Of a stretch of 64,000 bases of DNA, positions 7,050-46,324 are shown in pieces. The notes below the pieces were generated by a model. The model was not told the origin of the DNA. It worked only from the letters and a program-made list of their open reading frames with translations, and searched no databases. Position 1 is the first letter of the stretch. Each line of letters starts with the position of its first letter. Both the position numbers and the translations under genes were made by a program. The stretch lies in contig NC_087079.1 of NCBI RefSeq assembly GCF_026151205.1, positions 1,638,028-1,702,027 of the forward strand. The letters run 5' to 3'. The DNA is from Bolinopsis microptera. Its lineage: Eukaryota > Ctenophora > Tentaculata > Lobata > Bolinopsidae.

Positions 7050-10000
7050 TCAAACACCACCACATTCGATGATTTTGAAGAGTTTTTCAACGTCACCCTG
7101 TTTGATAGCACTTCGGCAGGCTGTTACAACTTGAGTTTTAGGTTTTCCTACCCTCAGACGTCCTGCTTTCTGAATACCCTGGGAAATAAATAAAACTTTA
7201 TAAATTTATATTGTATAATATTAATTTAAAGTATCGAACTGTTAAAGTGCTCTCCAATTTTTCTTAAAGAAAAATAAGCCGGATTCCGAAGAATGGATAG
7301 TGGCATGGATACGTCTAATTTTTAGGGTATATCTTCAAAAAGAATAATTTAAAATGCTGCTTTAACCTGATTGACAATCTTGAGACAGGCGAGTAGCTCG
7401 GAGTGATTGTTACAACGAATATTGTAACCGTTTACAAGATCCCTGTAAGAGAGGAAGTTAAAAATAATATTTCGCAGGGTTTCCATAAAAATGTTCTGAC
7501 CCAAACTTCTGCATCTAAAGAGAAGGCTCCGATTCTCATATTGATGATACTCTAGCTGCCCAATGGGACAGCACCGCGGACTGTGTTCCTTGACTAATAG
7601 TACCGTCCCTGATTGGTCACCAAATAGCACGTGACAAGATCGTTGATCGTGATTGGTGGCCATAGTATTGGAGTGATACAGGTGCGGTTTCCATTGTTAC
7701 GAGATTCGAGCACTTATTATACTAAAATAGGGAACGCTTCTCTTCAGGAAGACAATGCGACATAAAAAGAGCTCGCCGAGTGACAAGATCGCATTTTAAA
7801 GTTATTATAAAGGCAGATCTCAGGGACCTACGAGAGCATGGCGAGATGCTTATTAATAGATCCTTCCTTTCTCTGGTTCAATAAAAACAACAAATCTACC
7901 ACGGGGAGATGGGCCAGAGTGGAGCTTTTATTCGATTAATTGCACAAATAAATACCAAGGGATTCTCTCACAACAGTTCTGTGTCATGAGGATAGGTAAA
8001 AGCTTTATTAAGATTATAAATAGTAATCGAGGATTGCAGTATTTTAAGTTCAGATGATATTTTAACAGCTAAGTATTGTCATGGCGACGTGATGTCCATA
8101 TCCACTTTACATCCATTACCAAAGTACTGATCTCTACCCAGGAATGTGATGTGTTGTTTTAAGTGCTCCAGAGAGTTATTTCCAACCTATTTTACTTTTT
8201 AAAGGACATTCTACAAATAAATACCAATTAACCCCCTTTACAAGAGCAGCCTCAGATATACAATATAGAATCAGTTAAGACGTTGGTAGGATATGCAGTT
8301 GTACCCCGAAATAATGTGCCCAGGGTAAGTGACCATCAATACCATTAATCCGCTACTAATGAACAACAGTATCTTGATTTAGGATAATATGACAAAATAA
8401 TGTGTCAACACTACACAGTCTAGACCCTAGTGCGTTGTCCTTCAGCGGAGACAGGATTACTGGGTTAATTTTCTAGCATTTTCAGGTGCTTTCATATCTT
8501 TAACACTATATCCGGTGGTCTATTGCATCTTTAACCCCATCTTTAACAGTTCGACTGTCCGATTTTAAAATTACATAATATTGTCTCCAGATAGACTCAA
8601 CTGAAATCGTCAACGAATTAAACTCTAACCTGTTAAGATCGTATAACTTGAGATAACTCTGTTTCATACTGTTCATGTCGTTCATGAGGCGCGCGTCCTC
8701 CGCACGTACCACCAGACTCCGGATCAGATTGCTGTGGTCTGCCATCTCTGCTGTAAGCTTCTGTCGGACGTTGTGATACTCGTCAACTTTAACCAGTACC
8801 TGATGTAAGATGGGATTAGCAACAAGCTCTAGGTTGTGGAATATGAGAGATTTATAAAATGGCGTGTTGGTAATAACTGAGACATTATGGCACAGATTTC
8901 ATGGTTAAGCTATTAACTGTAAACGGGGAAACAGGTAAATATTATATAAAGCACCTCTTTAAGCTTCTCAATAAAGTCGGGGAAGTTGGCGGTGGATGTC
9001 ATGTTCTCAATATTAAGAGAGGCAGCTAGAGCCTGTACTATATCCCCAACCAAGTCAATATCCTCACAGTGTATCGTTATTGTACCTGAGCGGATCCGAG
9101 TTAATTCGTATTAGCGATCTTAAAAGCTTAAATGAGGTGGCGGTAAAATCATAAATAGTTTAATCTTGTCTCAGTGGAGCGTTTTTTAACCACCACTTCA
9201 CACATTATATCATTAAGTCAAGTAACAGGCAAAACACAATGTAACTCCCGTGACTAGCAACTGCGGAGTGTAGTTCTGTAGCTGTCAACTAAAAATCAGA
9301 ATTCATAAACTGCGTATGAATTTAAAAGTTTATATTAAAGTTCGTATTAAAGTATTAGCACAACTTTTACAATAATTGGACATTAAATCGGGGAAAGTAA
9401 AATAAATATTCCTGCTGCCAACTTAATTTGTCTCTCAAAATACTTCCAGTGTCTCTCAAAATGCTTCCAGACACGAAAAGTGCGCATTATCTAAATTGCA
9501 TAACTAAACTATTAACCTGGAACCATGTGGAGGAATATTGGACATCCAGTTCTCAGCGCCATCAGTTTTAGATCAAGTTCCGTGTCAGCAGAAATCTGAG
9601 GTATTTAGTTAAGATATTTTGTAAAATACAGCTGTTTAATCACACGTTTGTATGATACTGACAATTGAAAACATTATTATTAAGTCTATTGAGATGGGAG
9701 GTGGGATGAAACTTGAAATAAAGTACGCTTGACAGTCATATTTCTAGTTGGTGATATTAATTATTGCTCTGCTTTGAATACAACTATTTTTGCTGCCATT
9801 TTTTGAATATTTCGTGTGGTCACAGGACGGTTTAAATGCACGTGCAAATAATCGCGCGCAACACACAAAACACACATGCACACAACACTCTCGTGCAGTG
9901 CAGTGCTACGAACTCACTGCGCAAACCTCCTCGTCCAGCAGGAAGTTCTGATTAATCCACATCACCACCCGGTTTATCCGCTCGTTGACCGGGAAGGAGA

Positions 10001-13000
10001 CAAAAGATTTGGGCTTAGCGGTGTTAGTGGGAGCCTGGATGTAGAGGGTAAAGCGAGGGAGCTGGCGGGATAGCTCAAACACGTGGTACTGTGAACTGTT
10101 CTTGTGCCTGAGGGAGGTGAGTCAGAACACGTGGTACTGTGAACTGTTCTTGTGCCTGAGGGAGGTGAGTCAGAACACGTGGTACTGTGAACTGTTCTTG
10201 TGCCTGAGGGAGGTGAGTCAGAACACGTGGTACTGTGAACTGTTCTTGTGCCTGAGGGAGCTGGCGGGATAGCTCAAACACGTGGTACTGTGAACTGTTC
10301 TTGTGCCTGAGGGAGGTGAGTCAGAACACGTGGTACTGTGAACTGTTCTTGTGCCTGAGGGAGGTGGGTCAGAACACGTGGTACTGTGAACTGTTCTTGT
10401 GCCTGAGGGAGGTGGGTCAGAACACGTGGTACTGTGAACTGTTCTTGTGCCTGAGGGAGGTGGGTCAGAACACGTGGTACTGTGAACTGTTCTTGTGCCT
10501 GAGGGAGGTGGGTCAGAACACGTGGTACTGTGAACTGTTCTTGTGCCTGAGGGAGGTGAGTCAGAACACGTGGTACTGTGAACTGTTCTTGTTACTGAGG
10601 GAGGTGGGTCAGAACACGTGGTACTGTGAACTGTTCTTGTGCCTGAGGGAGGTGGGTCAGAACACGTGGTACTGTGAACTGTTCTTGTGCCTGAGGGAGG
10701 TGGGTCAGAACACGTGGTACTGTGAACTGTTCTTGTGCCTGAGGGAGGTGGGTCAGAACACGTGGTACTGTGAACTGTTCTTGTGCCTGAGGGAGGTGGG
10801 TCAGAACACGTGGTACTGTGAACTGTTCTTGTGCCTGAGGGAGGTGAGTCAGAACACGTGGTACTGTGAACTGTTCTTGTTACTGAGGGAGGTGGGTCAG
10901 AACACGTGGTACTGTGAACTGTTCTTGTGCCTGAGGGAGGTGGGTCAGAACACGTGGTACTGTGAACTGTTCTTGTGCCTGAGGGAGGTGGGTCAGAACA
11001 CGTGGTACTGTGAACTGTTCTTGTGCCTGAGGGAGGTGGGTCAGAACACGTGGTACTGTGAACTGTTCTTGTGCCTGAGGGAGGTGGGTCAGAACACGTG
11101 GTACTGTGAACTGTTCTTGTGCCTGAGGGAGGTGGGTCAGAACACGTGGTACTGTGAACTGTTCTTGTGCCTGAGGGAGGTGGGTCAGAACACGTGGTAC
11201 TGTGAACTGTTCTTGTGCCTGAGGGAGGTGAGTCAGAACACGTGGTACTGTGAACTGTTCTTGTGCCTGAGGGAGGTGGGTCAGAACACGTGGTACTGTG
11301 AACTGTTCTTGTGCCTGAAGGAGGTGGGTCAGAACACGTGGTACTGTGAACTGTTCTTGTGCCTGAGGGAGGTGGGTCAGAACACGTGGTACTGTGAACT
11401 GTTCTTGTGCCTGAGGGAGGTGGGTCAGAACACGTGGTACTGTGAACTGTTCTTGTGCCTGAAGGAGGTGGGTCAGAACACGTGGTACTGTGAACTGTTC
11501 TTGTGACTGAGGGAGGTGGGGTTGGGTCAGACTTGGGAGTAGGAACTGAGGTATCTTGGGATCTTTTATCTTTTCTCTAGGCGTGTAGTATTAGCTAATG
11601 GGTACTGAGCAATTAAAAATATCTGTAACTCCTACAAGAGAGTTTTGTAGTTATTACATCTGTCAGCACGTTGACAGACACAATGTCGAGGTTCGTGACT
11701 GCTGAGTGTCATCAGATTCACTTAGCTAATGGTAGATATATAAGTAGTGTCACGTGGGTGAGGTTAGGGCATCAAAATGGTTTTAGGCGAACCCTTTTAG
11801 CACTTGAAGTGCTAAGTGCTCAAGATAAGATCCAATAATGAAACTCAAAGTAGCGTTAAATATAGAAGTTAAATGTCGTATGACCACAAGTTCGTGACAA
11901 TTCGTTTTCATCCCCATTAGAGCATGCTCATTGATCCGGGTAGACTCACATTACGATTTGAAGAAGTTGACGATTCATTAACTTTTAAGTGATTCCCAAG
12001 TAAGTGCCCATTCTCTCCATCATAATAAAAAGACCCACCATTAGCCGAAAATCAAACCAACTTACCCGACGAAAGTCTTGACATGTAAGTCAATGGGGAC
12101 GTCTTTAGGCGGGAATATAGGGACACTGAGAGCGGAGGTGATTCCACTGGAAGGTGGGTGTACCACGTGACTCTCTCCGTTAAATATCCCTTCGGCAAAT
12201 ATCATTACTGCCTGAAATATATGGATATGTTACTGTCTGAAATATGTATTTATAGATTACTTTAAAATACATACTAAAATAGTTAACAGCTAGTTAAGGG
12301 GGCTTCATGAAAATTTTCTCGAAATCAACTTTTTAGTTATTTCTAATAGAAGGGAGTGATATCTATCAGCTGCTTTTGATCACATCGAAAAACATTGCTG
12401 GTCAAAGGTTAGCGCTCACGGGTAATTGTGTTGCGCGGTCTTTGAGGTATTGGCCGTCAGATCAACAAATACAGCTGTTAACGATAACTTAGTTCTTCAA
12501 TGTAGAGTGATATTAAGAAATAAATTCATATACATCAGTTACACAACCAAATTACCATCAGGTACACAGTACACCGCGGTTTGGATATTTAGTACAGTAA
12601 AACCCCGATTTACCGCGTAGTTTGGGGGAAGGTCATTTCCAAAATGGTTAGAGGGTAACTAGGGTAGCTATATATTGAGTGATATTTTTAATTGAGAAAT
12701 TTAACGAATTATTCTTGTAGATGTTTAATAGCTTATTTTTGGTTGTTTTCTTTGTACCGTTTCAAACTCTATACATTATAAAGTTTACCAATTTCTTGCC
12801 TCAACCATTTACTACTTCCATATGATTGCGTAATATAAGGATAAAACATGGTGGAAGCAGTAATCGACCGGGATTCCCGGCGCCGTGAAATCCCGGCACC
12901 GGGGGAGCTATTTCTTCCCGGCCCCGGCCCCGGCCGATTTTCAATTTTTGCCGGGAATTTGGCCGGGAATTTTTGATCGAAATCGGCCTAAAACTTTCAT

Positions 13001-16000: not shown

Positions 16001-19000
16001 TCCTGGCAAGGGAGAATGCTATTTGGGCTCTATCGCTTTTATGTCTATCTTTATGCAGTCTTATTTTCTTGCGCCATGCATCATAGCACTCTGAGTCAAA
16101 CCATGGATCTTGTCCATCTGTCTTAACTGAGCATTTCTTGATGAATTTGTCAGTGATATTAAAAAGTTTTTCTTTAAATTTTTTCCACCCAATTTCAGGT
16201 TCTGTGCCATTAAGCAATACATTCCAGTCTGTGTGCCGGAGTTCATGGTTTAACCTCTCCCAGTTCACGTTTTTATAGTTATAGCACATACGCTTAACCG
16301 GCTTCTTCCTATTTACCTTAATGTTGATCTTAAAGTTAAATAATTGAACTGCACGAAAAATTAAATCTATGGTACAGTTAAACCCCGATTTACCGCGGAG
16401 TTCGGGAGAAAGAAATAGGCGCGGTAAATCGGGGTTTGCGGTAAATCGGGGTTTTACTGTATAACTTATCAGTAGCTCGCGCGCAATGTTTAAAATTTAA
16501 ATACTTGCTGGTTCGGTGGCGTTAGTTGTATTGATAAGAAGTTGCACGTGCACGTACCTTGATAACGGTGGTGTTAGTGGTATTGATAAGAAGTTGCACG
16601 TGCACGTACCTTGATAACGGTGGTGTTAGTGGTATTGATAAGAAGTTGCACGTGCACGTACCTTGATAACGGTGGTGTTAGTGGTATTGATAAGAAGTTG
16701 CACGTGCACGTACCTTGATAACGGTGGTGTTAGTGGTATTGATAAGAAGTTGCACGTGCACGTACCTTGATAACGGTGGTGTTAGTGGTATTGATAAGAA
16801 GTTGCACGTGCACGTACCTTGATAACGGTGGTGTTAGTGGTATTAATAAGAAGTTGCACGTGCACGTACCTTGATAACGGTGGTGTTAGTGGTATTGATA
16901 AGAAGTTGCACGTGCACGTACCTTGATAACGGTGGTGTTAGTGGTATTGATAAGAAGTTGCACGTGCACGTACCTTGATAACGGTGGTGTTAGTTGTATT
17001 GATAAGAAGTTGCACGTGCACGTACCTTGATAACGGTGGTGTTAGTGGTATTGATAAGAAGTTGCACGTGCACGTACCTTGATAACGGTGGTGTTAGTGG
17101 TATTGATAAGAAGTTGCACGTGCACGTACCTTGATAACGGTGGTGTTAGTGGTATTGATAAGAAGTTGCACGTGCACGTACCTTGATAACGGTGGTGTTA
17201 GTGGTATTGATAAGAAGTTGCACGTGCACGTACCTTGATAACGGTGGTGTTAGTGGTATTGATAAGAAGTTGCACGTGGGAGGGCATGCTGTCCGTTTCC
17301 GTGGTGACTTGTAAGGAAGTCTGTAGTTGGGTGTTAGCTGGGATAATGCCCATGTGTTGGCCGTCTACGTCGGTTGTAGCGCTCAGTTTCAAACCTCCAA
17401 CCTGTGTGATGGGGTAGAAGTGAGGGAAGATCACTGATCAGGTGAACGAAGTTAACACCCAACTCAAAAACTAAATATTATATTGTTTTAAAAATCATAA
17501 TAAATATTCATTAACTTAAATCGTAATAAACATTGATTAACTGGATGATTGGTTATGGTAATCTACGGATTACAATTGGGCCACAACACAACTTTCGTTA
17601 CACATTATAAAGCTAAAATTATGAACTGACCTCCTTTCCTGCTTTGGTGTTCTCACTGTAGTTCTTAAGTTCTAGGAGCAAGTTGTTCTTCCTCTGCGCT
17701 AGTTCTCTGACCAGGTCTTGTTCTGCATCATTATCCATCAGGTTGTGGGACGAATCCTTGTTGGCGGGAGAGTAACCTCGAACCTTGAGATAGAAGTGTT
17801 ATGACGTCATGACTGAACTGGTCATGAGAAAATGATAACGAAATTATTGATATATTCAACCGCCACATAGCCACATGACTGAATAGTGAATGTTGTTCTT
17901 TCGTTTGACCGTGTATGTGATAATGGTACTATTATTAGTCAAATAGGTTTCTCTTAAAACCACAAAAACATAATTTGAGGTCATAACACCTCAGATGGTA
18001 GAATATACCACCAACTTCAATCTGAAATCTAAAAATAATCAGACGGCCAACCAGATGTCCAGCCACGATATATGGTTGGCACTGAGCCACACGTGACACG
18101 CACGTGACAACACGTGACAACACGTGACTAGTACTCACCTCCCCATCCACACTACAGGTAATGAGCTGTTTAGTCCCGTCCCGCCTGTAGTCGCCCTCTA
18201 CGATGCCAGCCACTGCTGAACCAAAGTTATCTTTAAACACTACCTGGGGGAGGAAACCTTTAGCTATTTCAAAGCGGGGGTGAGGGTAGAAAGATGGTGC
18301 AACTTGCTGAAGATAATTAGAAGATAATATTTAACTAACCATTACCATTTTTACAATTCCACTAAATAATTTTTTTTCTGAGTCTGAAGGCGTCCAATCG
18401 ATGTTCAAATTACCTAGTTTTAAAAATTTAAGGTACCAGTCTGTTTTAAGGTATTGTTCTATCGCCAAACTATTAAACCACCACGAACAAGTTTAGCCCA
18501 CGTGACCAGCACGAACAAGTTTAGCCCAGGTGACCAGCCCACGTGACCAACACGAACAAGTTTTGCCCACGTGACCAGCACATACCTCTCCGTTATGGCT
18601 ACTCCTGGCATCAAGTTTACCACTACTCCACCCCGTGATCAGCTCCGGTACTCCGTCTCCGTTCAGATCATACGAGAAGATGGACACCGCCTGGTTCTTG
18701 GACTTGATCCTCCAGAAGCGTGAGTTACGGTCGTACACTCCCACTGTACCGTTAGCTAGAGCGTACCTGTTGTAGGTCAGGTAAGGAATGTGGCGTGACG
18801 AGATATATCTCTGGTTATTAAACGTGTACCAATACCAACACGCACAATGCAAAATATTATGGATGGAACTAGTAAAATGCCTGGTATTCCACGACAAATC
18901 CAGAACCCATCCAGAATTTCCAAACTCTAGCGACAGCTCCGTGACTGAAAGTATAATCTGCTATCTCATTGTATCCACAGTAAACTTACCCGAACTTGCT

Positions 19001-21496: not shown

Positions 21497-22676
21497 CACG
21501 TGACTCAAAGATAACAGAGATCAGATAACAGAGATCAGATAAGACAGCTTATTCCATATCTTCCTACAAACCAAACAGTTGGTCATTAACAAATATCTTG
21601 ATAAAATATGACTCAATTGCACTATAGTTTGAAATTTAATGTATTTATAGAGTTTTTCGCTGATAACGTCGCGTCTTGTATTGACATTCTGTCTAGCAGC
21701 AGTCAATTTCAATGAACGCCCATCATATTGGGTTTGACGGAGCTTAAGATTGCTTAATAACATGACTAGGTCAGACTTTTCCGACTTTATCAGAAACTAA
21801 AATACAAAACTTGATCAGACGAGATCTTATAAATTGCTCAACAATGTTAAGTTCCACACGCACGGCCACTAACAGCAGATATTTTATACCTTGATGGCTA
21901 TAATTAGAATAATTCCACGCACCTCCTATACTCACATATTTTCATATACTCACATATTTTGGACATTCCGCCGCTTTTTTAAGCTCAAACTGACCACTTC
22001 ACTGTTCACACGTTTTTTATCACACCTCCACACACTATTTTGAACTGTAAAAATGTCATGCTCTTAATATTCAAATAAAGCAGACTTTGAATTCTGTGAA
22101 AGTCTTATAAATTTATACAATACATGATGTGTTAAATTTTATAATGCAATATTATGCAATAAAATGAATAAATACAATTCGTAATACTTTATGACTTTAT
22201 TAGGTACATAATTGTGACATCTGTTAATGCCCGAATTACCGCCCCAACTACGATACATTTTTCTGCACTGCAAACCCTACAGCTATATAAAATGTATAAA
22301 ACTGACGTGTCAAGACATACCAACTGTGAAAACACCAATAATTGGCATATTAATTAGTAACTCAGAAGTGGTAATCCACAACTAATTCAATAATTGAAAT
22401 AATGGAATAACGTTAAGTCAGTCAATTTATAAACTCATCAAATCATTCAAATTACCACCCCATATAATAATAGCATAATTTTTACAATTGTGCATCGAAA
22501 CTGTGCCAATATAAAAATAGAAATGAGCGATAAATATCGATACTGAAAGCCAGAAAAATGCTCAAAAATGCTGTCATATAATAATTCTTTGATAAACCAA
22601 TAAATATCTTAGATAAAAACGTATGATTATGTACAATAAAAATACCTTTACAAGAGCTGAAAATCTGAAACAAAGG
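21497..22676. other. BBS2-IQCB1 intergenic region
   Basis: This separates the IQCB1 stop (22754) from the BBS2 ATG (21496) on the same strand. Next to the BBS2 start is GAGTCACGTGATG, an E-box-like CACGTG only 3 nt before the ATG. Immediately upstream are two direct copies of ATAACAGAGATCAG (about 21508-21540). No X-box or other coding sequence was recognised. The region should contain the IQCB1 3' end and the BBS2 promoter. Confidence 0.5.
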
Positions 22677-34700: not shown

Positions 34701-37700
34701 TTTTTTGAAGAGTTACAATATATCAGTGCGAAGTAATTAGAAATATTTGGGAGCGCAAGTCAGTATTCAAGTCTGAGATCAAGTCACACAAGCATACAGC
34801 GATGCAGTCATGTCAAGTCACATTATATAATATGTAAGCATACAGCAGTCATGTCAGTACAGTTTAGGAAAAAATAAAGCAGTGAAAATATTCAGTACAC
34901 ACCTGACGGCAGAGATTTTCCCTTCTCGTTTGAACCTTCCGAATATTAGCCTGATTCTTCCTGTACTTTAAATACATATCTTGTGACTTCAAAACCAGCT
35001 TTTCCAGCTGAAACATTGTTGTGTCAAATGTGTTTAAAAACACACGTAATAAAGCACAGTGCCATAATACACGATAAATTACGAACAGTGCTGTAACTTA
35101 TCTGGTTTACTGGGTCAAGTTACTGAAGGATAATCTATGTAATTCACTGTGTAATTCACTGTGTTTAACAAGAAGCCTGTGTATTATGTTATATTGTAAT
35201 ATTATTATGTTAAAGGCCTTTCTTTTCGATGATTTACTGGTCTTACTGTGAGAAGAATTTTCTCATCAGAGGTATTGAAAGTTAGGTATTAGCATTTTAG
35301 CACTGTAGAATAACATTTACAATGTTATATAATATGGGTGGAGCACAGTTTATAATTTCATTAACAATGATAATTTATCATCTTATCACTTCATCATGCA
35401 GCCATTCTCTTATTCCATCCTTTAAATGGCGTGACAACAAATTACAAAGTGAGGAAATTCATGATATGATATGAGCTTAAAATATTGATTACTTAGTCCG
35501 GTGTTGTAATAAGATGTGGCAAATCTAAAAAAGGGATAAACTGAGGTAAAATCTAAAGTGGGGTTAACGGAGGTAAACGGTTCTCTATCCAACAATCTTG
35601 TAATTTATCTGGATACTCGCGACCAATCAATTTCCAGCATGTGAAGTATTGACCAATCAAATCCCAGGATAACTGTCACGTGTCAAACCTAACATGGTTC
35701 ACCCTCTGTGTTCAGATATATATATATTATATATACACAGAACTAAACTCTAAAACTTTGGTAAACTGTGTAAGTTTAAAAGTTGATAAGTAGAAACTAA
35801 CCTCTTCCTCGCCCTTCTGCTCCCCTTCCTCCAGCTGGTTAAGCTTTTGTACTTTACTGTTGAGCTCCCTGACCTTGTCTGCAGTTAAACCCGGGGGTAA
35901 CAATCCTGTGCTACTGTAACTAGCTCCAGTCCTGAAGGTGTAACATATCGGTAATAGAGGGTAATTAGAGGGTAACATGAGTTCTGTACTACCGTAACAG
36001 GTAACTACGCGTGTCGTCACCATGGTGATAGCCGATAGGTGTTTATAACATGCCCCTCACTTTACCTGTAAAGACGATACTGTCTCTGGATTGAGACAGC
36101 AGCTCTGGTCTGTTCTCTGTGTTTCCTCATCTTCTCTACCTCCCTCTTCGCACTGTAACCTCTCCAGCTGGCCTGTATTTTACTAGCAGCTGCACTTGCC
36201 ACCTGAGATTAATTAATTAATTATTCTCTCCATAAATATTATTTGCAGAAACTCTTGGGATAACTCATGCCAAATTTCCATGATCCACTTCTCTGTTCAC
36301 TTCATGTTCGATAAAGTTTTAGGAACTACGGATTCTTAATACTCTACCCTCAGGCTTCATTGCAGATATGCAGGTTATAAAGTATTTTATAAGGTATTTC
36401 AACACTTCAACAGTATACCTGGGCCTAGAAATGCAAATATTTGAACCCAGCCCCAAGGTGCAATTAATCAAAACATTCCCAGAGCTCTTTTCATTTTACT
36501 GTAACACCTCCACAAATATAATGATAGTAATATAAATCACCCCGAGTGTTGTATAGACTAGTATGTGTTAAACACAGCTGAAATTGGCTGGTAAATATGC
36601 CACCACGCAAAACAGCATTACGCCTATAGTTTCGCAACATGGTTACCATGGCAACATGCACGTTTTCACACAGTATAGGTTAAAAGTTGTCTCACTTTCG
36701 GGCGTGCTTAATTGGGGTTAATAATGCAAATGGTTATTGTTTCCAGACATGGGTTGATCGCTTTTGATGACGTCACTTTCAACTTTGACTGTGAGTAGTT
36801 GATGTTTATTAAACAAAACAAAGGTCACGTCATGTATGACGAATCATCCAGATCATCCAGATCGCAGACAAAAACCTTTTGAACTGCTAACCTACTGCCC
36901 TGGTTGATCAGTGACGTAAGACGTTTAGATTTCTTTAAAATTCGAAGAGAAAGTTACCAACGTAAATTTCAAAGCACTTAATGAGTTAATGCCTCTACGA
37001 AAGAACAGCCCTCTTGTTCTTTCATTCGAGGACGAATAATCACAAAATTACACATAACTGACATCGCGTGTCAAATCATACTCAACAGCTAGCTGATATT
37101 ATGATCATAATATAATGCTCAATAGCTAGCTGATATATTATGATCATAATATCATGTTCAACAGCTAGTTGATATTATGATCATAATATCATGCTCAACA
37201 GCTAGCTGATATGATCACTACCAAAAACTCTGTTACAAAGTGTTAACTCTTTAATAATCTAAAGTGCTGATCTCAGTGCTAAAATACACGTATAGTATAT
37301 TAGTAATGACGTATAGTACTACATAATGATTGTCGCTGTATATTGCGTATACAGTGTGTCCACATGTCTGGATTCAGTCTAAATCACTTGTCATGACAAA
37401 AATTAACACTTTGTACACTACTATTATAACTACGCTAAAACATGTCATTCGGCCACGTTTTGTAACACCAAACTTCATTGTTTAACATTACATTTGAAGG
37501 GATCGTGCGTGTAACCACGTGTCAAAAACCACATCCTTACTGTTTAAACACTGCTAGACCACGACAAAATACCAGACTGTAAATAAAACAGTCATACTGC
37601 AGAAAACCTTCGTTATTTTGCACTCCCGTGGTGTTTAGCTTTCACAAATCACTGGTTACAATAATACACAGTACAGGAAAACCCCGATTTACCGCGGAGT

Positions 37701-40700
37701 TAGGGGGAAAAGGAAACATCCGCGGTAAATCGGGGTTCGCGGTAAATCGGGGTTTTGTTTGTTTACACTATGCATGTTAAGCCCTATTTGGGGGAAGGAT
37801 ATGTCCACGGTAAATCGGGGTTTGCGGTAAATAGGGGCGCGGTAAATCGGGGTTTTAACTTTTACTGAACTAGTACCCATCTTGATAAAATACACACTTT
37901 TATTGACCATAGTCTCAAATGAAAGCTCTACCTTACCACATACACTGTAAAAAGTAACAAAAAACTTCACATTGTGCAGCTGTTATAATGTTAATAAGGA
38001 GTTAAAGTTTCTCAAATCACAAGTGTAATAATATAATGCAGCTCAGTACACGTCTTGATAAAATACACACCCTCACGACTCACATAGAACTGACTGGAAT
38101 GTCTCGAATGTATGTCACAGAGGCACGTGAAGCATGTAACTATTGTAACTATTTGGCTCACTGTAATCTAGCGTGGTAGAGTGAAGACATACTAGAGCTG
38201 TGGTAAACCGTTAACCGACACAATAATCACTGACATTGGTAGACAATAATCACTGACATGAGTAAAAGATAAAACAATAGTAATTGTCTTCCTCGTGAGG
38301 CAGAGCAATTGTTAAGATAATAGCTACAATAATAATATAAACAAGACGTGGTCCGATATTTGGAGGTATTTGAGGCTGGTTATAATAACATAGCAGGAGG
38401 GGAAATGATTTTCTGATTTAACTGTTCATTAATTAGCTAATTAGTGAACATTTAATTAGCTCATCAGCCAATTAGAAGCTCTAATACATACCGCCCACAA
38501 TTAACATTATCATAAGCAAAAGATAATTAAATAATAATAATTAAAAACGAGAAGCCAGACTCAGCTCCGTAGAATTCCACCGAATTAATATTACAGTGGA
38601 ATTAGGATTGGGATCAGGGTTAGACTTATATTATATGGGCGATTTCACGTAAAGTAAATTACACTTTGCACAAAAATTTGGCCTTATTCTGACTCTCAAG
38701 CATTACACAAACATAACAGAATCATGATAAATTGCATGAAACATCTCTTATGTACTCCACACACAGCTATATTAAGATTTTTACTCCAACTGCTATGGCT
38801 TTTGAGTGAGGCACGTTTGAAAATGTAAAGTAAATTACAGGGCACAAATTGACATTCCTGACCAACGTGTATTGAAATCTCATTTCGTGCCCAGGTGTGA
38901 GAGTAAACATTTAAATATTTTTCATGCACACTGGCAAATGTCTTGCCTGTACTGGAAAGGGTTTGTTTTGGTAAATAGTTAATAGCTGTGTTCTGTAGAA
39001 GCCTTTGTTCCTTGTAAAGTAAGTTACTCTTTTGTGTCAAGTAGTTTACACTGTTACACAATCCTTTGATTTTAACTGTTTAAAGCTGCCCCTTTGTCTT
39101 TAATTCGTTTGCTAAGTGTATGAACTATGTAATATATGATTAATAATGATATATCAGTTTATCATTAGCCAATTAAGGGGGCCGGGGGGGCCTTCATCAA
39201 AATTTTCTCGAAATTGACTTTATAGTTGTTTCTAATAGAGGGGAGTGATATCTATCAGATGCTTTTGGTCCCATGGAAAAATATTGTTCCTAGACGAAAT
39301 TATTATCGGTCAAATGTCAGCGCTTATGTGTAATTGTATTGCGCGAGCGATTTTCAATTTTTGAAAATCTTGGACCTCAAAAAATCGTCAAAAAACGAGG
39401 TTCAAGATTTTCAAAATCGAATAAAATATGTTTAAAGGCCTATCTCAAAATTCTGTTTGGCTCATCTCTTTTAAATTATCTCTAGAACATATCCTGAAAG
39501 TTTCAGGGTGATTGCTCAAAACATGTAGGAGAAAATAGATTTTTAGACTCGATTTTCAGGACACGTGATTGAAATTCGCTCGCGCAATACAATTACACAT
39601 AAGTGCTGATCTTTGACCGACAATAATTTCGGCTAGGAATAATATTTTTCCATGGGACTAAAAGCATCTGATAGATATCACTCCCTTCTATCAGAAACAA
39701 CTAAAAAGTCAATTTCGAGGGAATTTTGATGAAGACCCCCCGGCCCCCTTAAGCCCTTAATTGGTTGATTGATCCACTGATTGGGTCCACAGTTAGCCCA
39801 GTTATACAGAGTAGGTAGATGGGCGTAAATGTACGAATGTTTCCCAGCTCAAAAATTTGTGTTCAAGCAGGCCACTGAATTTTCTGTAAAGTAAAGTATT
39901 ATTTATATTATATTTTCGAAAAGTCAATTTTTAACCATTTTAAACCATTTTTATAGATTTCTTTAATGAAATTCTGACCAGAACCAATCTATTATCACTT
40001 TTAAATAACTTTTATTCTGTTTGACAATCGTTACTTGTTGTGTTTTACTACTATTACTGAATAAAAAGCATATGTGTAAATTACTTGACACGTAAATTAC
40101 TTGACATGTAACTTACTTGACGCTGGTATTGACATGATCTGATATCTATGGATCTAAATAAACAAGTACATTATGTCTTGACATCAGAATTAGCTTGTTT
40201 TAGCAAGATTTCAGCAAGAAATAACATGAAATGTGGCCAGCAGAAAACTTTTTTGTTTTTTATGTATAGTAATTTACACTAAAAACAGGAGAAAGTAGAA
40301 TAGCATTGCTCAGAATCTGCTTAAATTTTGAGTCCCAAATTTTGCATACAGCTTCAGTGAAGTGGTATGCACCTTTACAGATCAAGAATTAATGAATATT
40401 ACAACAATCTCTTTTTAGTAAACAGCTTTTATTATAGAGTAGTTTTAGCCTGTAAAACATGACAATTTATGGGTATTTTGAAAACGCGATAACACAGAAA
40501 CGAAGTGAGATATTTATAAGCGGTTTTTTGTGTCTAACAGTTTATAATCTTCTCTTTCAGACTCCAATCAAAGCTAGTGCCATAACTGAAATTAATTTTT
40601 TCCCTCCTTGTTCATGTTTCATGAAATTGCCCATATAGTGTTCGATTATAGGGTACTAGGCGTATGATATATTTCTGTAGAATTCTACAGAGCATAGAGC

Positions 40701-43700
40701 TGTGTTGGGCCTCTTGGATAATGGATAATTAAGTGCACATGAGCATAATATATAATATATAACATATAATAATACAATTGATCAACTACTAAACCAGACT
40801 CTAATTACTTCTAGGTAGGTACTATTTCTAAAATGAATATTGAGTACACTGACATGTTATATAATATAAATAATATCACTAACCTCATGTTGGTGCGATG
40901 GTATCTTGCTGGCTGGTATTGTACGGAGCTTGCTCGCCTCTTCTTGTAGCCTGGTTCTTCTCCTCTCACGTGCCTGAACACAAGGTAGTTACCATGGTAA
41001 CCTGGTGTATACTGTATAATGGAACATGTTGAGATCCAGCAAGCTCTTATTGATATGGTGTCTCACAAAAACGAGCGAATATTTAAACTGAGTCAATTAA
41101 TTTCCTGTCCAACTTAAAGTTGAGGCTCAACTGAACCACATTTAGTTACAGCAATGGGCTTACTTTGTCTGTAATTGCTCTTAATTTCATAATCTTTTAG
41201 TATTTCTGTGGCACTAAATATGAGATACATATTTAAAGCTCCAACTATCCAACAAGTCAACCAGTAAGAACAAATGTTCCTGAATTCAAATGTAAAATAA
41301 AGGGCAGCTATTTTCGTTCGCACCTTTCTCGATGACAGCTCTTTTTCTAACTCTGTATCCTTTTCCTCCTCCTCCCTCTCCTTCTTCTTCTTCAACCAGT
41401 CCCTGAACTTTAGCTGGAACTTGCTGATACGCTGGGAGTTGAGGCGCAGCTCCCTCCGTGTCACGTAACCTCTGTAAAACGCTTGTATTTTCGTGGCAGA
41501 GGAGTCTAGACGCGCCTTTTCTGCTTCATCTCTTCTCAGTTTGTCAATATACCTAAAGAATAATTGTTTGGTTAAAACGAATTATGGATATTGTAATTAA
41601 AACCGTTTCCTCATTTAGCTGATGATAACTACTAATGAGCACCTGGGCTTAAATAAATATTTAGTTCAAAACGAAATTATTTAAGTTTACGTTTAGTGTA
41701 AAGTAGACAATAGTATTTGAGTAATTATTATCAAAGACGTTTCGAGTTATTTAATATGTAGGCAATACGGCAACTCTCTAGTTTCTACTGTCTGCTGCCT
41801 CCGATACCGGTAAACGGTTACCATGGTAACGTGGTGTAACCTGAAATGTAGTTACCATGGTAACAAGTTACACCACGTTACCACGGTAATTGGTAACGTG
41901 GTGCAACTTATAACACCGTTACCATGGTAACATGGTGTAACTTATAACGCCGTTACCATGGACACGCAGTATTTACAGGTAGGAACAGTGGTGACAGTAA
42001 ACTAACCAAACTGTCAAGAACAATTGAATTGGACTGAACAGCTGCCCTGTACAAGTGTACACAAGCTCTTACAACAGTCTACAGTACGCGTAATTATTAC
42101 TGGCACTTGTACAAGTTTACATCATAGCTCTATCAGGAATCTGTGTTGAAGTACTGTGTACCTCCTAAACTGGGATAATACCACACCAACCACTAGTTTT
42201 ACACGTGGTGGAATATAGGGTTAAACTTTATCCGCCATTATATTACCCCATTATCCTTAACAGTATGGTTACCCGAGAAAATGGAGGACAATCAACGTTT
42301 TACACCTATTACTATCACGGTGCAGGACACTGTATCAGACATCCTGAGCTACTTGCCAGTGATTTAGTCTTATGGGAACCTATGCATGGTACAGCACAGC
42401 AAGGCCAACCAAAACAAAGCTACTTGTCTATAATACTGAAGGAAGTTGGGACAAACTCTAAAGAGGAACAGCAAACCCTGATGCGGGACAGGGATATATG
42501 GAGGGAATTATCTGGAGTAGATCGGACTTAGTTCCGACATAGTAGTAGTAGTACTATCACAGTGATATGATCGGTTCATTAAATAACTTTAGTAACTTTA
42601 GTAACTTTAGTAACTCACTTGAGTAGCATGTTAATGTTATCGTGGGCACCGGGAGCTGTGTTGATAACCTCCAACAAATCCACAACCTCTTCTCCGTTCT
42701 CCAGCAGTATACTCTGAACATTTATGAATTAGACTCATAATTATATTTAATTAGATAATAATGATAATTGGGATCATATTATGATAATCGATGAATTATG
42801 ATAATAGTTAGCAATGCAAATGTATTATTGAGTGTGAGAATTAACCATGCGTATCTTAACACGTGTCTTAAGACTGAGAAAATACAAACAACTTGAGAGG
42901 GGATTCTTGAAACAGATAAATGATAGCATGGTAGCAGGAGCTTTCGAAATACAAATTTGGAAATATCGTCTTCAACTAACTCAGTAACTCTGAAAGGTTG
43001 GTGCCGTTTAGCAGCCTGATAGAAAATAAGAACTAACTCTGAAAGGTTGGTGCCGTTTGGCAGCCTGGTATAAAATAAGAACTAACTCTGAAAGGTTGAT
43101 GTCGTTTGGCAGCCTGGTAGATGACATCAGCTCCAATCTGTTGTAGTGCCGGAATATCTTGTTCTGTCATCTTCAGCATTACTTCGTCAAATATCACCTG
43201 TAGTTAATGGAAACTTTTAATGAAGGTAATTATGATTTTAATCAAGGTTATTATACACTTGAGAGTTACAGCTCATGATGACTTCATGGCCAGTATGATT
43301 CGATTATCTGCAGCAAATTCTTGCAGACACAATCAGTAATGTGCAATAATTTCAACAGACTTCTATTCGTTAGTCGAATAGTCCTAGCAATAATATGAAA
43401 ATTAAAAAACGCTGTTTCTCAAAATACCTTAAACTGAGTATATTAGCATAATAGATAATACCTTAGTTCCCAAAAAATTGTGTGCCATTATATTGAGCAC
43501 AATTTATTTGAGCCCGAAAAATTTGGGCAGAAAATTTGAACTCATTTGGGCGACCGAAAATTTGGGCACAAATTCTTCGAAAAATGAACGATTTTCCACT
43601 AAAATTTCAGTTAGATATTTGCCTTAGTTCATTATTATTCCTTATTATTCCAGTCATTTTGCTTTCAATTTTAAGCATGTAGGTGATAGTCTGAGTTGTT

Positions 43701-46324
43701 TCACATTATGAAATTTACGATCTGCCCAGTAACTACTAAAAAATACAGTGATGATGGCACAGTACAAAATGATAGATATACAATAGTGATATTTAGTCTC
43801 TCTTTAGCCCCTGGACTGGCTAAGAAATTCATGCGCAATAAGTACGAAGATTGGTACCGAAAAACATAGTGTGTCAGCTCAATGGAGGAGTTTCATCAGA
43901 CAATGTGAAAATTGATATCTGCTTGACAGTGATCCGTGAAGTACACGCTCGTTGGATCAACGAACTTTTTGTATATTTAAAAGGGAAGCCAGATGACATA
44001 AGGAAAGGCTTTGAGAAATCGCCAATCGGATATAACTGATGCTTGTAGATCAAACTTTACTGTGGATGATAATCCATTTGCAGATCTTGTTTAAATCTCT
44101 AGCTATCTGTACCTCTAGCCATTTGTTTTATAAGTAGCTGTTAGCTATTCCAGTTATTTCTATTCGCTTAAAATATAAGCCTTTTTACTTGGCCAAGCCA
44201 TGAATGACAGATTAGAAAACTAAAATTTCAAATATTATTTCACTTGGATATGAAGAAAAAGCCATCTTTCTATAGATTTCAGGGCCACAGGCCAAATGCC
44301 AAAAGTTTGGTTAGCAAAAAATTTAGCAGACGGAAAAGATTTATGCAATAAATTTGGTCTGCAAAAAATTTGGGCGAGAGGCCCGCTCAAATTTTTGGTC
44401 GCCCAAATTTTTGGGAATTAAGGTAATATTATATATAATAGATAATATGAGATGTAATAGTAACTTACCAGAAGTTTATCACGTTCAATGTAGTACCGTG
44501 CAGCAGTAGATTGGGTCAGCACTACTCTCAGTAACTTCAATAAACACATGTCTATACCCACACTGCCTGTTAACATGGTTACTGTTAACATGGTTACTGT
44601 TAACATGGTTACTGTTAACATGGTTACTGTTAACATGGTTACTGTTAACATGGTTACTGTTAACATGGTTACTGTTAACATGGTTACCATTAACATGGTT
44701 ACAGTTAATATGGTTACTGTTAACATGGCTACTGTTAACATGGTTACCGTTAACATGGTTACAGTTAATATGGTTACTGTTAACATGGTTACTGTTAACA
44801 TGGTTACTGTTAACATGGTTACTGTTAACATGGTTACTGTTAACATGGTTACTGTTAACATGGTTACTGTTAACATGGTTACTGTTAACATGGTTACTGT
44901 TAACATGGTTACTGTTAACATGGTTACTGTTAACATGGTTACTATTAACATGGTAACTTACTCTCAGTCATGAGCATGGTAAGGAGTCTCGGGGACTCAA
45001 TGATGGTCTGTCCGAAGGAGGGGGAGTAGTCCACCAACCAGAACACACATTCCAGACATTGTCTGAAGTCTTCCTCGTCTGGAGATACAAGTCCTGGGGG
45101 TGATAGTCAGATTTGGATGATAAAAACGGCTTTAAATGTGATAACCATAGTAACGAGGTGATTCACAGGGTAACAAGGGGAATTAACAGGGTAACAGTGG
45201 TGATGGAAGCTAATAGAAATATCTTTCCCTAGAGGCTAGAACTATGTACTTTATTAACGCATTACGTAATCTACCAGAGCTACAGTGTGAGACCAAGGTT
45301 AATGGTTATACTGTTATCCAATTATGATTTATTAAATTTAACGAGGTATGATCGTCATCTTCTTAGAGCGTTTGATGTCTGTGTGAAGGTAAAATGGTGA
45401 CATCCCATAACTTTAGTATTGCTATACAACTACTACAGATTTATTAAATTGATTAAATGTAAACCATGCAGGCTCTCAACTAGGTGGTTGGTCAGGAAGT
45501 CAGGAATTTGATTTAAAATATTGATCAACCAAAACTAATATATAATATGGTCAGTGCACAGTTGGTGCATAATATCGAGCGAGTGTACTTAATGTTGAAC
45601 CTTGAATGTTATTGGCTAGTTCCATGAAACTATCGACCACCAAAGGGAGGAAAACACCAGAAAACTCCTGTGACTGAGTGAAGCCCATGCAGCACTTAGC
45701 TAGGAGAGTGCAGAGTTTAGTAGCCGTGCTCCAGGGCACCCTCAACCCCTCAAAATCTTGTTTTATCACATCTGTCATGGTGCTGGGGTGATGGAGAGAG
45801 ATGTAAGATTTATGTGCAATATCCTGCTTTTCATGGTATTGATAATATTGTTGAAACACTAATCACTATTTAATTACGGATATAAAACTTCTTGTCAGAT
45901 TATGGTCTGACAAAACCACAATTATCAGTTACTTAATAACCCTGAAGGTATCATGTCTCAAACGTACCTCATGATCTCGTTCTCCCAGAGCAGTGATCTG
46001 ATCTCCCTGTTATCATGCTGTTCCAGCAGCTGTTCTATCTGGTAGATTGGAACAGTAACAACTTCATTATCGATCATGATTTTAGGGGAGTTATTCACTT
46101 TACTTGTTAGTGATGTAGGATTCATCGCGGATATCATTGGATTTCAACAATATTCCCAGAACAAATAATAATTTATAACAAAATTGTAGATTTTAAGCTA
46201 ATTGAAAATTATGTTAAAGCAAGCAATAAGTTAAACAAACCTGTAAAAGTAGAGTTGGTATGTTGCTATCTCCCGCTTTAGACAGCTTGTACAAGAGAAC
46301 ATCAACCTCTTGTTTCGCAGCCAT
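22754..46324 (-). CDS. IQCB1: IQ-motif centrosomal protein, nephrocystin-5 (IQCB1/NPHP5)
   Basis: Fourteen coding exons: 46237-46324, 45968-46097, 45601-45782, 44962-45093, 44469-44566, 43087-43197, 42619-42713, 41324-41552, 40884-40973, 36066-36202, 35802-35931, 34903-35007, 24969-25121, 22754-22867. Phases join to about 597 residues (human 598). Recognisable parts: helical N-terminus (AGDSNIPTLLL; VPWSTATKLCTLLAKCC; CLECVFWLVDYSP), an IQ motif near residue 299 (ATKIQAFYRGYVTRRE), a charged coiled coil, a second IQ near 393 (SKIQASWRGYSAKREVE) with AAVSIQRQYR after it, and a C-terminal helical tail (APTLEDCTPEEAKL). NPHP5 binds calmodulin, works with CEP290 at the ciliary transition zone and is reported to interact with the BBSome. 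The least certain junction is exon 1/2: the phase-compatible donor is GTTTAA at 46236, not the nearer GTTTGT at 46240. The last exon is weakly conserved. Confidence 0.9.
23691..24089 (+). CDS. Small secreted cysteine-containing protein, nested in IQCB1
   Basis: Intronless frame of 132 residues from the ATG at 23691 (CTAAAATGAGG). Upstream in-frame codons lack an ATG. Residues 1-20 form a signal peptide (MRLLSCLFSLMLTTPTLPLE). The mature part has six Cys (CALTC, GCGF, RGCPS, RCDVY and the C-terminal NC). Its layout, with an aromatic YEWRGYHGQAY segment then CGFVSAPVVTAVLKG, IELSKETRFVVQT and a final W/C stretch, resembles small secreted single-domain proteins common in invertebrates; I cannot name the family. 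A TATA-like TATATATAG lies about 32 bp before the ATG. It sits inside the last intron of IQCB1 on the opposite strand. Confidence 0.75.
   Translation: MRLLSCLFSLMLTTPTLPLEVKILNTPDGKPHPPPCALTCSGISKYSDTGDYEWRGYHGQAYKRNNITGCGFVSAPVVTAVLKGYYTRGCPSVFIELSKETRFVVQTVEGATAGQMTKDRCDVYWTANGFNC
24558..24690. repeat. 19-bp tandem repeat
   Basis: Five to six copies of GTGTAGTTCCTTACAAAAG, some with CACCTCTTTC inserted, in IQCB1 intron 13 about 470 bp downstream of the nested secreted gene. Confidence 0.8.
25124..25221. repeat. Polypyrimidine-tract repeat at the IQCB1 exon 13 acceptor
   Basis: Five variable 16-21-bp copies of GAGTGGGAGGGG plus TTCTGTTA directly upstream (in transcript sense) of the exon 13 acceptor. 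On the minus strand each is a copy of the CCCCTCCCACTC tract that precedes the true AG at 25122-25123. Confidence 0.8.
25222..27290. other. Part of IQCB1 intron 12, nothing recognised
   Basis: AT-rich intron sequence. Short frames on both strands lack any recognisable protein signature. Confidence 0.4.
27294..27416. repeat. Direct duplication of about 60 bp
   Basis: Two adjacent, nearly identical copies containing CACCTATCCTTGTGGTGG and ATTTCATGAGTATTGGA, in IQCB1 intron 12. Confidence 0.85.
27417..28585. other. Part of IQCB1 intron 12, nothing recognised
   Basis: Unique-looking AT-rich intron DNA up to the target duplication of the 3.4-kb element. Confidence 0.4.
28918..29110. repeat. Left subterminal array of CTAGAGCGG motifs
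   Basis: GTAGGACCCTAGAGCGGAGT and variants are repeated five to six times. The first 60 bp match the inverse of 30630-30690 almost perfectly. Such arrays are typical candidate transposase-binding sites. Confidence 0.85.
29240..29860 (-). pseudogene. Decayed MULE transposase C-terminal region
   Basis: On the minus strand the frame contains LAFLSVDDVLPSFMELLD, FLNYFMTNWVQGVS, ARFPPQSWNLVDR, NYAEAFNRKFAAMLGHSYPT and IWTFL, then after one in-frame TAA (about 29461) continues AVYIEQSTTDEMMLKEGYG and APPAKRARQR. This order (YF..TW, RFPP..WN, N..EAFNR, HP.IW, basic tail) is the C-terminal part of MULE transposases found next to FLYWCH/zinc-finger modules. Upstream, VRENGLKKDYDEG lies in another frame, implying a frameshift near 29790. 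The catalytic DDE core was not found, so the copy is inactive. Confidence 0.8.
30470..30715. repeat. Right subterminal array, inverse of 28918-29110
   Basis: Repeats of CCGCTCTAGAGTCCT, with TGGCGATTTGACTCC spacers, mirror the left array. A related array occurs at 63395-63535. Confidence 0.85.
31237..31644. mobile_element. Foldback element bounded by 17 G and 17 C
   Basis: It starts with 17 G and GGCCAAGTGGATATTTGTAG and ends with the exact inverse (CTACAAATATCCACTTGG, then CCCA and 17 C). The flanks carry the 6-bp repeat ATCATA on both sides (31231-31236 and 31645-31650). The interior is two to three diverged direct copies of a roughly 185-bp unit rich in TGTAGATATTTGTAGATTA. It has no coding capacity and is nested in the 3.4-kb element. 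Confidence 0.85.
32070..32320. repeat. 31-bp minisatellite with TTTTAGGG motif, 8 copies
   Basis: Eight near-identical units of GTGTGTTTTAGGGTGTTGTG plus TCTGGTGAGAG, in IQCB1 intron 12. Confidence 0.92.
32321..34902. other. Rest of IQCB1 intron 12, nothing coding
   Basis: AT-rich. A short repeat (TGACCATTGTG with GTTACGG, four rounds, some with TGACGTCA) lies at about 34475-34585. A possible relic related to the CCTTA-ended element lies near 34270-34400. Confidence 0.45.
36642..36655. promoter_or_regulatory. RFX X-box-like palindrome
   Basis: GTTACCATGGCAAC fits the RFX X-box consensus RYYNYY-AT-RRNRAC at every position. It lies in intron 9 of the ciliary gene IQCB1. RFX factors drive ciliary genes, but usually from promoter X-boxes. 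Confidence 0.5.
37084..37215. repeat. 37-38-bp tandem repeat, about 3.5 copies
   Basis: Units contain CAACAGCTAGCTGATATTAT and the palindrome TATGATCATA, in IQCB1 intron 9. Confidence 0.85.
37672..37870. mobile_element. Pogo/Tigger-like MITE, internally duplicated
   Basis: It starts TACAGGAAAACCCCGATTTA followed by CCGCGG and ends with several copies of GCGGTAAATCGGGGTTTT. It has the same terminal sequence as 16375-16459 but the inverted end is repeated about four times. It lies in IQCB1 intron 9. Confidence 0.7.
38640..40290. repeat. Dispersed GTAAAGTAAATTAC motifs around the TTAA element
   Basis: CGTAAAGTAAATTACACTTT (about 38648), TGTAAAGTAAATTACAGGGC (about 38824), GTAAAGTAAGTTACT (39015), three spaced copies of GTAAATTACTTGACA (40075-40122) and an inverse form near 40270. 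These may be ends or subterminal repeats of an older element into which 39177-39748 inserted. The 121-residue minus frame at 38696-39061 has no recognisable domain. Confidence 0.35.
39177..39748. mobile_element. 572-bp long-inverted-repeat element with TTAA target
   Basis: Arms of about 180 bp: the left begins GGGGGCCGGGGGG(G)CCTTCATC and the right ends GATGAAGACCCCCCGGCCCC. Both ends abut TTAA (39173-39176 and 39749-39752), the target used by piggyBac-type elements. A second inner hairpin (ATTTTCAA...TTGAAAAT) lies at about 39350-39420. It has no transposase. It is in IQCB1 intron 9. A solo arm is in BBS2 intron 9. Confidence 0.85.
40988..41001. promoter_or_regulatory. RFX X-box-like palindrome
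   Basis: GTTACCATGGTAAC, a perfect 14-bp palindrome that fits the X-box consensus, 14 bp inside IQCB1 intron 8 from the exon 9 acceptor side. Confidence 0.45.
41817..41965. promoter_or_regulatory. Cluster of RFX X-box-like palindromes
   Basis: GTTACCATGGTAAC occurs perfectly at 41817-41830, 41851-41864 and 41918-41931, with degenerate forms at 41877-41890 and 41952-41965. They are spaced by GTGGTGTAACTTATAAC-like sequence, so the cluster grew by local duplication. It lies in IQCB1 intron 7. Confidence 0.5.
42340..42531 (+). pseudogene. C-terminal fragment of a LINE polyprotein
   Basis: The plus-strand frame carries LVLWEPMHGTAQQGQPKQSY followed by an ILKEVGT..EEQQTLMRDRDIWR segment. This matches the conserved tail of many LINE ORF2 proteins (W.P.HG....GRP...Y...L...D..W). 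No RT domain precedes it, so it is a short relic in IQCB1 intron 7, opposite to the gene. The open frame starts at 42205. Confidence 0.7.
42583..42616. repeat. 9-bp repeat at the IQCB1 exon 7 donor
   Basis: Four copies of AACTTTAGT, which on the minus strand directly follow the donor GTGAGTTACTAAAG at 42618. Confidence 0.8.
42970..43118. repeat. 49-bp repeat duplicating the IQCB1 exon 6 end and donor
   Basis: AACTCTGAAAGGTTG recurs at 42986, 43035 and 43084. On the minus strand each copy carries the last codons of exon 6 (CCAAACGACATCAACCTTTC in the true copy) plus the donor AGA|GTTAGTT. The copy nearest the exon body is the one in frame. The two inside the intron have 1-3 base differences. 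Confidence 0.88.
43461..44423. mobile_element. 963-bp pogo/jerky-like DNA transposon relic
   Basis: The terminal inverted repeats CCTTAGTTCCCAAAAA and CCTTAATTCCCAAAAA (read inward from each end) are flanked by TA. The interior holds AAATTTGGGC repeats and a transposase fragment. It occupies most of IQCB1 intron 5. Confidence 0.8.
43800..44039 (+). pseudogene. DDE (pogo/CENP-B-type) transposase C-terminal fragment
   Basis: The plus strand reads LAKKFMRNKYEDWYRK, then in another frame NIVCQLNGGVSSDNVKIDIC, REVHARWINELFVYLKG and KGFEKSPIG. The (H)A(R/K)W..E....(L/M)......I..GF/W pattern is the end of the DDE domain in pogo/jerky/CENP-B-like transposases. A single-base shift in an A-run near 43862 separates the two parts and the catalytic acids are not present, so the copy is dead. 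Confidence 0.65.
44567..44961. repeat. 15-bp minisatellite forming all of IQCB1 intron 4
   Basis: About 26 copies of AACATGGTTACTGTT, a few with single substitutions (ACCATT, ACAGTTAAT). On the minus strand the intron begins GTAAGTTACCATGTTAACAG and ends CATGTTAACAG|G, so both splice sites are made from or merge into repeat units. Each unit contains GTAAC and TTAACAG, i.e. weak donor-like and acceptor-like strings. Valine-threonine-rich frames on both strands are repeat translations. Confidence 0.95.

Follow-up and report, generated by a model that had tools for sequence, protein, structure and literature searches.

Results

Two ciliary genes with repeat arrays at their exon ends

The window, by which we mean the whole stretch of 64,000 nucleotides that was analysed (1638028-1702027 on its contig in the 264.65 Mb assembly of Bolinopsis microptera), holds two neighbouring ciliary genes, BBS2 and IQCB1 (Table 1). 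When BBS2 is spliced by hand, its product is identical to the NCBI Bolinopsis microptera BBS2 protein (100% across 728 aa), and residues 1-726 align, almost end to end, with BBS2 from solved BBSome structures. The product of IQCB1 aligns over its full length with P0121 (56% identical) and P0123 (40% identical), both from relatives' contigs of transcript size, and partially with P0122 (63% identity, 60% covered). Alignment with the relatives moved exon 2 to 46038-45968, and at the array-bearing junctions the alignment with P0121-P0123 is free of gaps. Among the four matches of a protein search there was no near-identical IQCB1 protein from the same species. A sequence-only reading of this DNA had proposed that two genes here carry arrays at their exon edges, and both genes are borne out, the one by protein identity and the other by the relatives' alignment. 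The TRPC gene, which the same reading had set beside them as free of arrays, was rejected as a control; it is largely one long open frame (53673-55445).

Table 1. Genes, junction-spanning arrays and abutting arrays; positions are those of the window
Feature	Position	Strand	Unit and copies	Relation to junction, or basis
BBS2 gene, 16 coding exons	7050..21496	-		hand splice; NCBI protein match
IQCB1 (NPHP5-like) gene, 14 coding exons	22754..46324	-		hand splice and alignment to relatives
IQCB1 stop codon	22756-22754	-		read from sequence
Putative mirage array, BBS2 exon 9 donor	16514..17278	-	52 nt x 14.7	spans junction
Putative mirage array, BBS2 exon 11 acceptor	10078..11520	-	48 nt x 29.9	spans junction
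Variant copy inside BBS2 exon 11 array	10252..10306	-	55 nt	comparison of copy and exon sequence
Putative mirage array, IQCB1 exon 6 donor	42985..43121	-	49 nt x 2.8	spans junction
Array, whole IQCB1 intron 4	44567..44958	-	15 nt x 26.1	donor +3 to acceptor
Array, IQCB1 exon 5 donor (absent from the earlier reading)	44424..44460	-	19 nt	about 8-8.5 nt away
Array, IQCB1 exon 7 donor	42584..42615	-	9 nt	begins 3 nt from exon end
Array, IQCB1 exon 13 acceptor	25124..25222	-		ends 2 nt ahead of acceptor
Array, IQCB1 stop codon	22676..22752	-	15 nt x 5.1	begins 1 nt past stop
Weak array (TRF score 45), BBS2 exon 2 acceptor (absent from the earlier reading)	21225..21265	-		4.5 nt away
CACGTG-bearing array, BBS2 exon 6 donor	18477..18579	-		6 nt from donor
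CACGTG-bearing array, BBS2 exon 7 donor	18089..18128	-	10 nt	10 nt from donor
L059 cullin acceptor array			73 nt x 45	acceptor and 28-30 nt exon
L060 cullin donor array			30 nt x 17.4	six exon bases and GTAAGG
L061 cullin acceptor array			63 nt x 3.0	acceptor and 29-30 nt exon

Tandem Repeats Finder (TRF) returns 96 rows in the window. Intronic arrays were counted when their TRF score was at least 50 and their period at least 7, with merging, and by this count the introns of BBS2 and IQCB1 hold 32 arrays, which make up 14.5% of the intron bases in the two genes. Intron 9 of BBS2 contains an 800-codon open frame on the minus strand (14097-16496) that by eye resembles a retroelement reverse transcriptase. 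The array at 10221-11576 stays open for 452 codons, and frame-based gene finders may call arrays coding. Nested elements (31245-31645 and 28606-31970) comprise a repeat-rich stretch between runs of G and C, and outer parts that have the unit AATGGCATAA in common.

Arrays that span a splice junction

Consider first the donor of BBS2 exon 9. The unit of its array consists of the exon's last 45 nt and 7 nt of intron, and the array contains 13 additional donors, each with the same score as the true donor (10.5 bits). At the acceptor of exon 11 the unit consists of the intron's final 18 nt, with CTGAC, a pyrimidine tract and CAG, and the exon's first 30 nt, and there are 29 additional acceptors, the majority of which score 15-16.4 bits. 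The true acceptors of BBS2 and IQCB1 score from 6.3 to 15.0 bits, and when the highest of these, which is that of exon 11 itself, is set aside, the majority of the copies outscore every true acceptor in the two genes. One variant copy in this array has 53 nt of exon where its neighbours have 23 fewer, and it enters the next copy at CTCCCTC, a stretch of 7 bases that the exon shares with the sequence ahead of the acceptor. In IQCB1, the unit at the exon 6 donor joins 35 nt of exon to 14 nt of intron, and its array has no additional donor of at least 6 bits under the final matrix (6.1 bits under an earlier one).

The NCBI BBS2 protein model takes the exon-proximal copies at the arrays of exon 9 and exon 11. 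When an inner copy is used instead, translation runs into a stop codon in both cases. When IQCB1 exon 6 is extended by one unit it stays open, yet the frame shifts by one base, because 49 is not a multiple of three.

The sequence-only reading knew of no named system that duplicates splice junctions. There is one, for in amphioxus, according to excerpts of two papers (PMC3087553, PMC3902484), minisatellites that span a junction are called mirages. Units that contain both exon and intron of one junction, the defining feature, are found at BBS2 exons 9 and 11 and at IQCB1 exon 6, and the further feature that many copies keep their AG or GT signals is found at the first two of these. Judged by the defining feature as it appears in the DNA, the three spanning arrays of the window are mirages, and the abutting arrays fall outside the class.

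Arrays that abut an exon end

The units of the abutting arrays do not combine exon and intron sequence of one junction, and this holds at BBS2 exons 2, 6 and 7 as well as at IQCB1 intron 4, the exon 5 donor, exon 7, exon 13 and the stop codon. In IQCB1 intron 4 the array comes to 3 nt from the donor and 0 nt from the acceptor, and its units have weak splice-site scores. The distances had been put at about 5 nt or less from an exon edge or stop, and this is correct for eight of the ten points listed, the exceptions being BBS2 exon 6 (6 nt) and exon 7 (10 nt). That the units are unrelated is likewise correct in general, with the qualification that four BBS2 arrays (10078-11520, 16514-17278, 18089-18128 and 18477-18579) have CACGTG in common. 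Outside arrays this motif occurs 33 times versus 12.8 in the masked sample (about 2.6-fold) and 25 times versus 6.3 in the masked window (about 4-fold); since it is over-represented outside arrays too, we regard it as background. A ctenophore loop-anchor motif was considered as its source and rejected, as the available text of PMC12221973 names a GC-rich motif and does not contain CACGTG.

Arrays in other genes of the same genome

The scale on which the pattern was tested is that of a gene sample and not of the whole genome. The sampled families (myosin, CCT, cullin and kinesin), which are conserved and multi-exon, were fixed before any array outside the window had been viewed. Three families and one kinesin make up a sample of 71 introns, namely 50 myosin/CCT introns and 21 cullin/kinesin pairs, in which arrays account for 23.1% of intron bases. 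The myosin/CCT junctions were located by Pfam coordinates; 57 were found, 7 were removed for low score, margin or indels, none of them with an array edge within 40 nt, and 50 were kept. The cullin/kinesin pairs were kept by hand from 16 Pfam-coordinate and 29 gene-finder pairs that overlap, and this set is curated rather than blind. The near copies L062 and L064 and doubtful pairs were excluded from it, the kinesin pair L063/L064 had been chosen as a near-identical pair and not at random, and three cullin genes were sampled, with a fourth place, on C5, outside the sample. A wider set consists of 113 pairs filtered from 261 pairs predicted by a home-made gene finder, and the wider sample in the placement test has 134 introns. 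The gene finder recovered 53 of 56 known edges at the chosen penalties, in genes that were partly its own training set.

A junction-spanning array is found in each of the three sampled cullin genes, so that exon-edge arrays are not confined to the two ciliary genes. Direct comparison of five spanning units with their exons gives matches over 30, 28-30, 29-30, 45 and 6 bases. L061 has a second site, with a two-copy duplication of an acceptor and about 19 nt of exon. The Pfam-coordinate method chose the exon-proximal site in L059, at the second L061 site and, by a margin of only 0.9, in L060. The first L061 site has no Pfam-coordinate pair, and here the gene finder chose the exon-proximal copy; in L059 it chose the preceding copy, with in-frame read-through.

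The near-identical genes L061 and L062 lie about 116 kb apart on the same contig, C13, and agree to about 91-99% in the principal blocks of their alignment; they represent either a recent duplication or a second haplotype retained in the assembly. Several arrays differ in copy number between them, and the 63-nt acceptor unit has 4.0 copies in L062 versus 3.0 in L061.

Some further features of these loci deserve mention. In all three acceptor-spanning arrays with many copies the repeated exon part is 28-30 nt (window 10078-10107, L059 2452-2481 and L061 6037-6066), which may be either coincidence or a length rule; the two-copy duplication in L061 (about 19 nt) and the BBS2 variant (53 nt) are exceptions. 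The arrays that abut acceptors in L036 and L053 have repeats with CTAAT immediately ahead of the acceptor, which we take to resemble a branch-point motif. The near-identical kinesins L063 and L064 differ in one intron, to which L063 adds about 930 nt (841-1771), and this additional stretch contains two tandem arrays with units seemingly in inverted orientation, as could be the case in a mobile element.

Are the arrays closer to junctions than chance allows?

When arrays are placed evenly in the same introns, 1.7 of the 32 arrays in the window are expected to come within 10 nt of a junction, and the observed number is 9. The corresponding figures are 10 of 42 versus 2.4 for the 71 introns of other genes and 15 of 46 versus 3.65 for the 134 introns, and in all three sets the observed count was matched by 0 of 5,000 shuffles. 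The p-values for the window are flattering, because it was selected for an exon-edge pattern already noticed there. The 71-intron excess is driven mostly by the cullins: the cullin/kinesin introns have 7 of 16 arrays near a junction versus 1.6 expected (p 0.0006), and the myosin/CCT introns, with 3 of 26 versus 0.8 (p 0.037), are weak evidence on their own. The excess in the 71-intron sample persists when any one locus is left out (p at most 0.0013 throughout, 1,500 shuffles), when introns are at least 250 nt (8 of 38 versus 1.85 expected) and when they are at least 500 nt (3 of 26 versus 0.76, p 0.026). It is also seen for non-spanning arrays, of which 7 of 39 lie within 10 nt versus 1.7 expected (p 0.0016), as do 6 of 29 versus 1.6 in the window (p 0.0002).

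Now let the null placement include an exon overhang. In the 71-intron sample the count of 10 is then compared with 7.1 for an overhang of 30 nt (p 0.14) and 8.6 for 45 nt (p 0.33), and in the 134-intron set the count of 15 is compared with 10.7 (p 0.08) and 12.8 (p 0.27), respectively; the myosin/CCT introns alone have 3 versus 3.0 at 45 nt. The enrichment check that the sequence-only reading had called for thus comes out positive against even placement and loses significance when an overhang of 30-45 nt is admitted. The overhang null absorbs the excess in the 71-intron sample, and therefore no exon-edge process is required there. The 134-intron set does exceed the null when the overhang is 20 nt (p 0.013) and, for a distance of 20 nt, also when it is 30 nt (p 0.036). 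At 45 nt the excess is retained by the window (9 versus 4.0, p 0.004) and by the window pooled with the 71-intron sample (19 versus 12.5, p 0.020).

The question can also be put from the side of the splice sites. In the window, an array is found at a distance of 10 nt or less from 10 of 56 splice sites (17.9%) and from 15.7% of interior intron points; the sites are no nearer to arrays than the points. In the wider set without cullins the numbers are 8 of 226 versus 12.9%, and in the 50 myosin/CCT introns 3 of 100 versus 18.7%. A similar relation is seen for 20-mers. Those that lie on junctions are duplicated nearby in 3 of 56 cases in the window, 4 of 42 in cullin/kinesin, all four in cullins, 0 of 100 in myosin/CCT and 0 of 222 in the cullin-free wider set. 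For 20-mers from the interior of introns the corresponding shares are 12.7%, 52% (a value that the spanning arrays inflate), 13.8% and 8.1%. Junctions are, in other words, not hot in absolute terms, and the arrays that exist favour intron ends over an even scattering. The earlier impression that few arrays lie mid-intron was mistaken, since for 23 of the 32 arrays in the window the distance to the nearest junction exceeds 10 nt.

Discussion

A proposed explanation by duplication and tolerance

We propose, with a probability of roughly two in three, that the arrays are mirage-type minisatellites, generated by ordinary tandem duplication in a repeat-rich genome and tolerated through the use of the exon-proximal site. 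Segments of about 9-75 nt would be duplicated by slippage or by unequal exchange between short identical stretches. When such a segment straddles a junction, its copy would bring a splice site together with part of the exon into the intron, where an array would grow by subsequent expansion of the copied segment. As long as the exon-proximal copy stays in use, the remainder would leave with the intron and the gene would survive. The CTCCCTC join in the exon 11 array would be the expected trace of slippage or unequal exchange, as seen at one join only, and microhomology or slippage may be the general cause; the tolerance may be passive. In support of the proposal, BBS2 appears to be spliced correctly in spite of its decoys, as judged by the NCBI protein identity, and the length of IQCB1 agrees with that of its relatives at the array junctions. 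Also in its favour are the cullin arrays, the large share of repeats in the introns, the loss of significance of the 71-intron excess under the overhang null, and the likeness to the mirages of amphioxus.

Errors of annotation could imitate contact between arrays and exons, if exon borders were wrong or array edges loose. TRF edges do wobble by some bases, the wider sample comes from a home-made gene finder, the near match L037 looks mis-spliced by eye, and the cullin/kinesin set was curated by hand. The borders of BBS2 are, however, those of NCBI and the borders of IQCB1 those of the relatives, the 71-intron sample, obtained mainly from Pfam coordinates and GT-AG, retains the excess, and the exon parts of the five spanning units were confirmed base by base, all of which makes an artefact very improbable. 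That the arrays are peculiar to BBS2 and IQCB1, as ciliary genes, or to their part of the chromosome is scarcely credible: the contrast in duplicated junction 20-mers between the window and myosin/CCT points that way, but the cullin loci, on other contigs, largely refute it.

It may also be asked whether selection retains the arrays for a beneficial or tuning effect of repeated splice signals on splicing. Among the six spanning arrays are three with many extra sites of the kind they copy (13 or 34 donors, or 29 acceptors), and the strength of most exon 11 copies in comparison with other true acceptors of both genes is what such selection would favour. Against this stand the stop codons met from inner BBS2 copies in both translated cases and the fact that the NCBI protein takes the exon-proximal site. 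As a general cause, selection on repeated splice sites fails, as at least two extra strong splice sites occur in only 6 of the 19 near-edge arrays of the window and the sample, all of them spanning, and the 13 non-spanning ones have at most one each. We consider selection improbable.

The strongest competitor, though still an unlikely one, is that exon edges are preferred birthplaces of tandem duplication, through a process tied to transcription or splicing such as R-loops, nicks or microhomology between splice motifs. In its favour, arrays within 10 nt are in roughly 4-fold excess on both donor and acceptor sides, not only in the window but also in a sample independent of it. This excess survives when any one locus is dropped and when introns below 250 nt are set aside, and the window and the 134-intron set exceed the overhang nulls of 45 and 20 nt, respectively. 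For 31 plants and algae, too, an excerpt of PMC3887541 reports that tandem repeats are commoner near the ends of introns. On the other side, neither outside sample has a significant excess at 45 nt overhang, arrays are no closer to splice sites than to random points within introns, and the data amount to only 42-46 arrays in few genes. The local exon-edge process of the sequence-only reading therefore fares unevenly: a near-edge excess does recur in other genes, but it is not special to ciliary genes, and the overhang null suffices for it in the sample. We hold it similarly doubtful that ctenophore exon edges are favoured for duplication, that a mutational process coupled to transcription or splicing steadily lengthens introns by duplicating the splice sites and exon ends that border them, and that mirages occur genome-wide.

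Ordinary duplication with tolerance has a shortcoming of its own. Under plain random duplication, non-spanning arrays should not be in excess within 10 nt of a junction, as they are, and the window and the pooled set exceed even the 45 nt overhang null. This part of the excess is unaccounted for, and a mutational bias at exon edges may therefore exist.

If the excess should hold genome-wide, these would be natural introns in which the spliceosome picks among up to tens of equal or stronger sites, which would provide a ready test of exon definition, as well as raw material for intron growth and new exons. Mirages, reported from a handful of lancelet genes in the literature excerpts at hand, would then also occur in a very distant animal lineage.

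Relation to known systems

A literature search on ctenophores and in general, by titles mainly, found no prior report of a ctenophore mirage. In the genome of another ctenophore, Hormiphora, an excerpt gives 13% as marked by Tandem Repeats Finder (PMC8527503).

The closest parallel is found in amphioxus. There, minisatellite-like duplications occur at both intron ends, and splicing is reported to be regular. The units measure 10-72 nt in Adh3 and about 150-160 nt in the globins BflGb6 and BflGb9, and copy number varies between haplotypes (PMC3087553, in excerpt). Further mirages are described in PGBD5 and troponin C in the accessible part of PMC3902484. As far as these excerpts go, the amphioxus mirages and the Bolinopsis arrays are alike in that they span the exon-intron boundary at donors and at acceptors. 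They differ in that the former were described in single genes of a cephalochordate, whereas the latter belong to other genes, in a ctenophore, and were tested for excess in a sample.

In plants and green algae, as in Bolinopsis, tandem repeats are in excess near intron-exon junctions, but the motifs named in the excerpt of PMC3887541 are mostly short, and it describes no spanning of junctions, unlike the Bolinopsis mirages. In the RdRp gene of potato, a new intron originated from a tandem duplication at an intron-exon boundary (PMC4974935, in excerpt). That duplication crosses the boundary, like the Bolinopsis arrays, and carries branch site, pyrimidine tract and acceptor. In potato, however, a new intron arises, whereas in Bolinopsis existing introns grow and the protein is unchanged.
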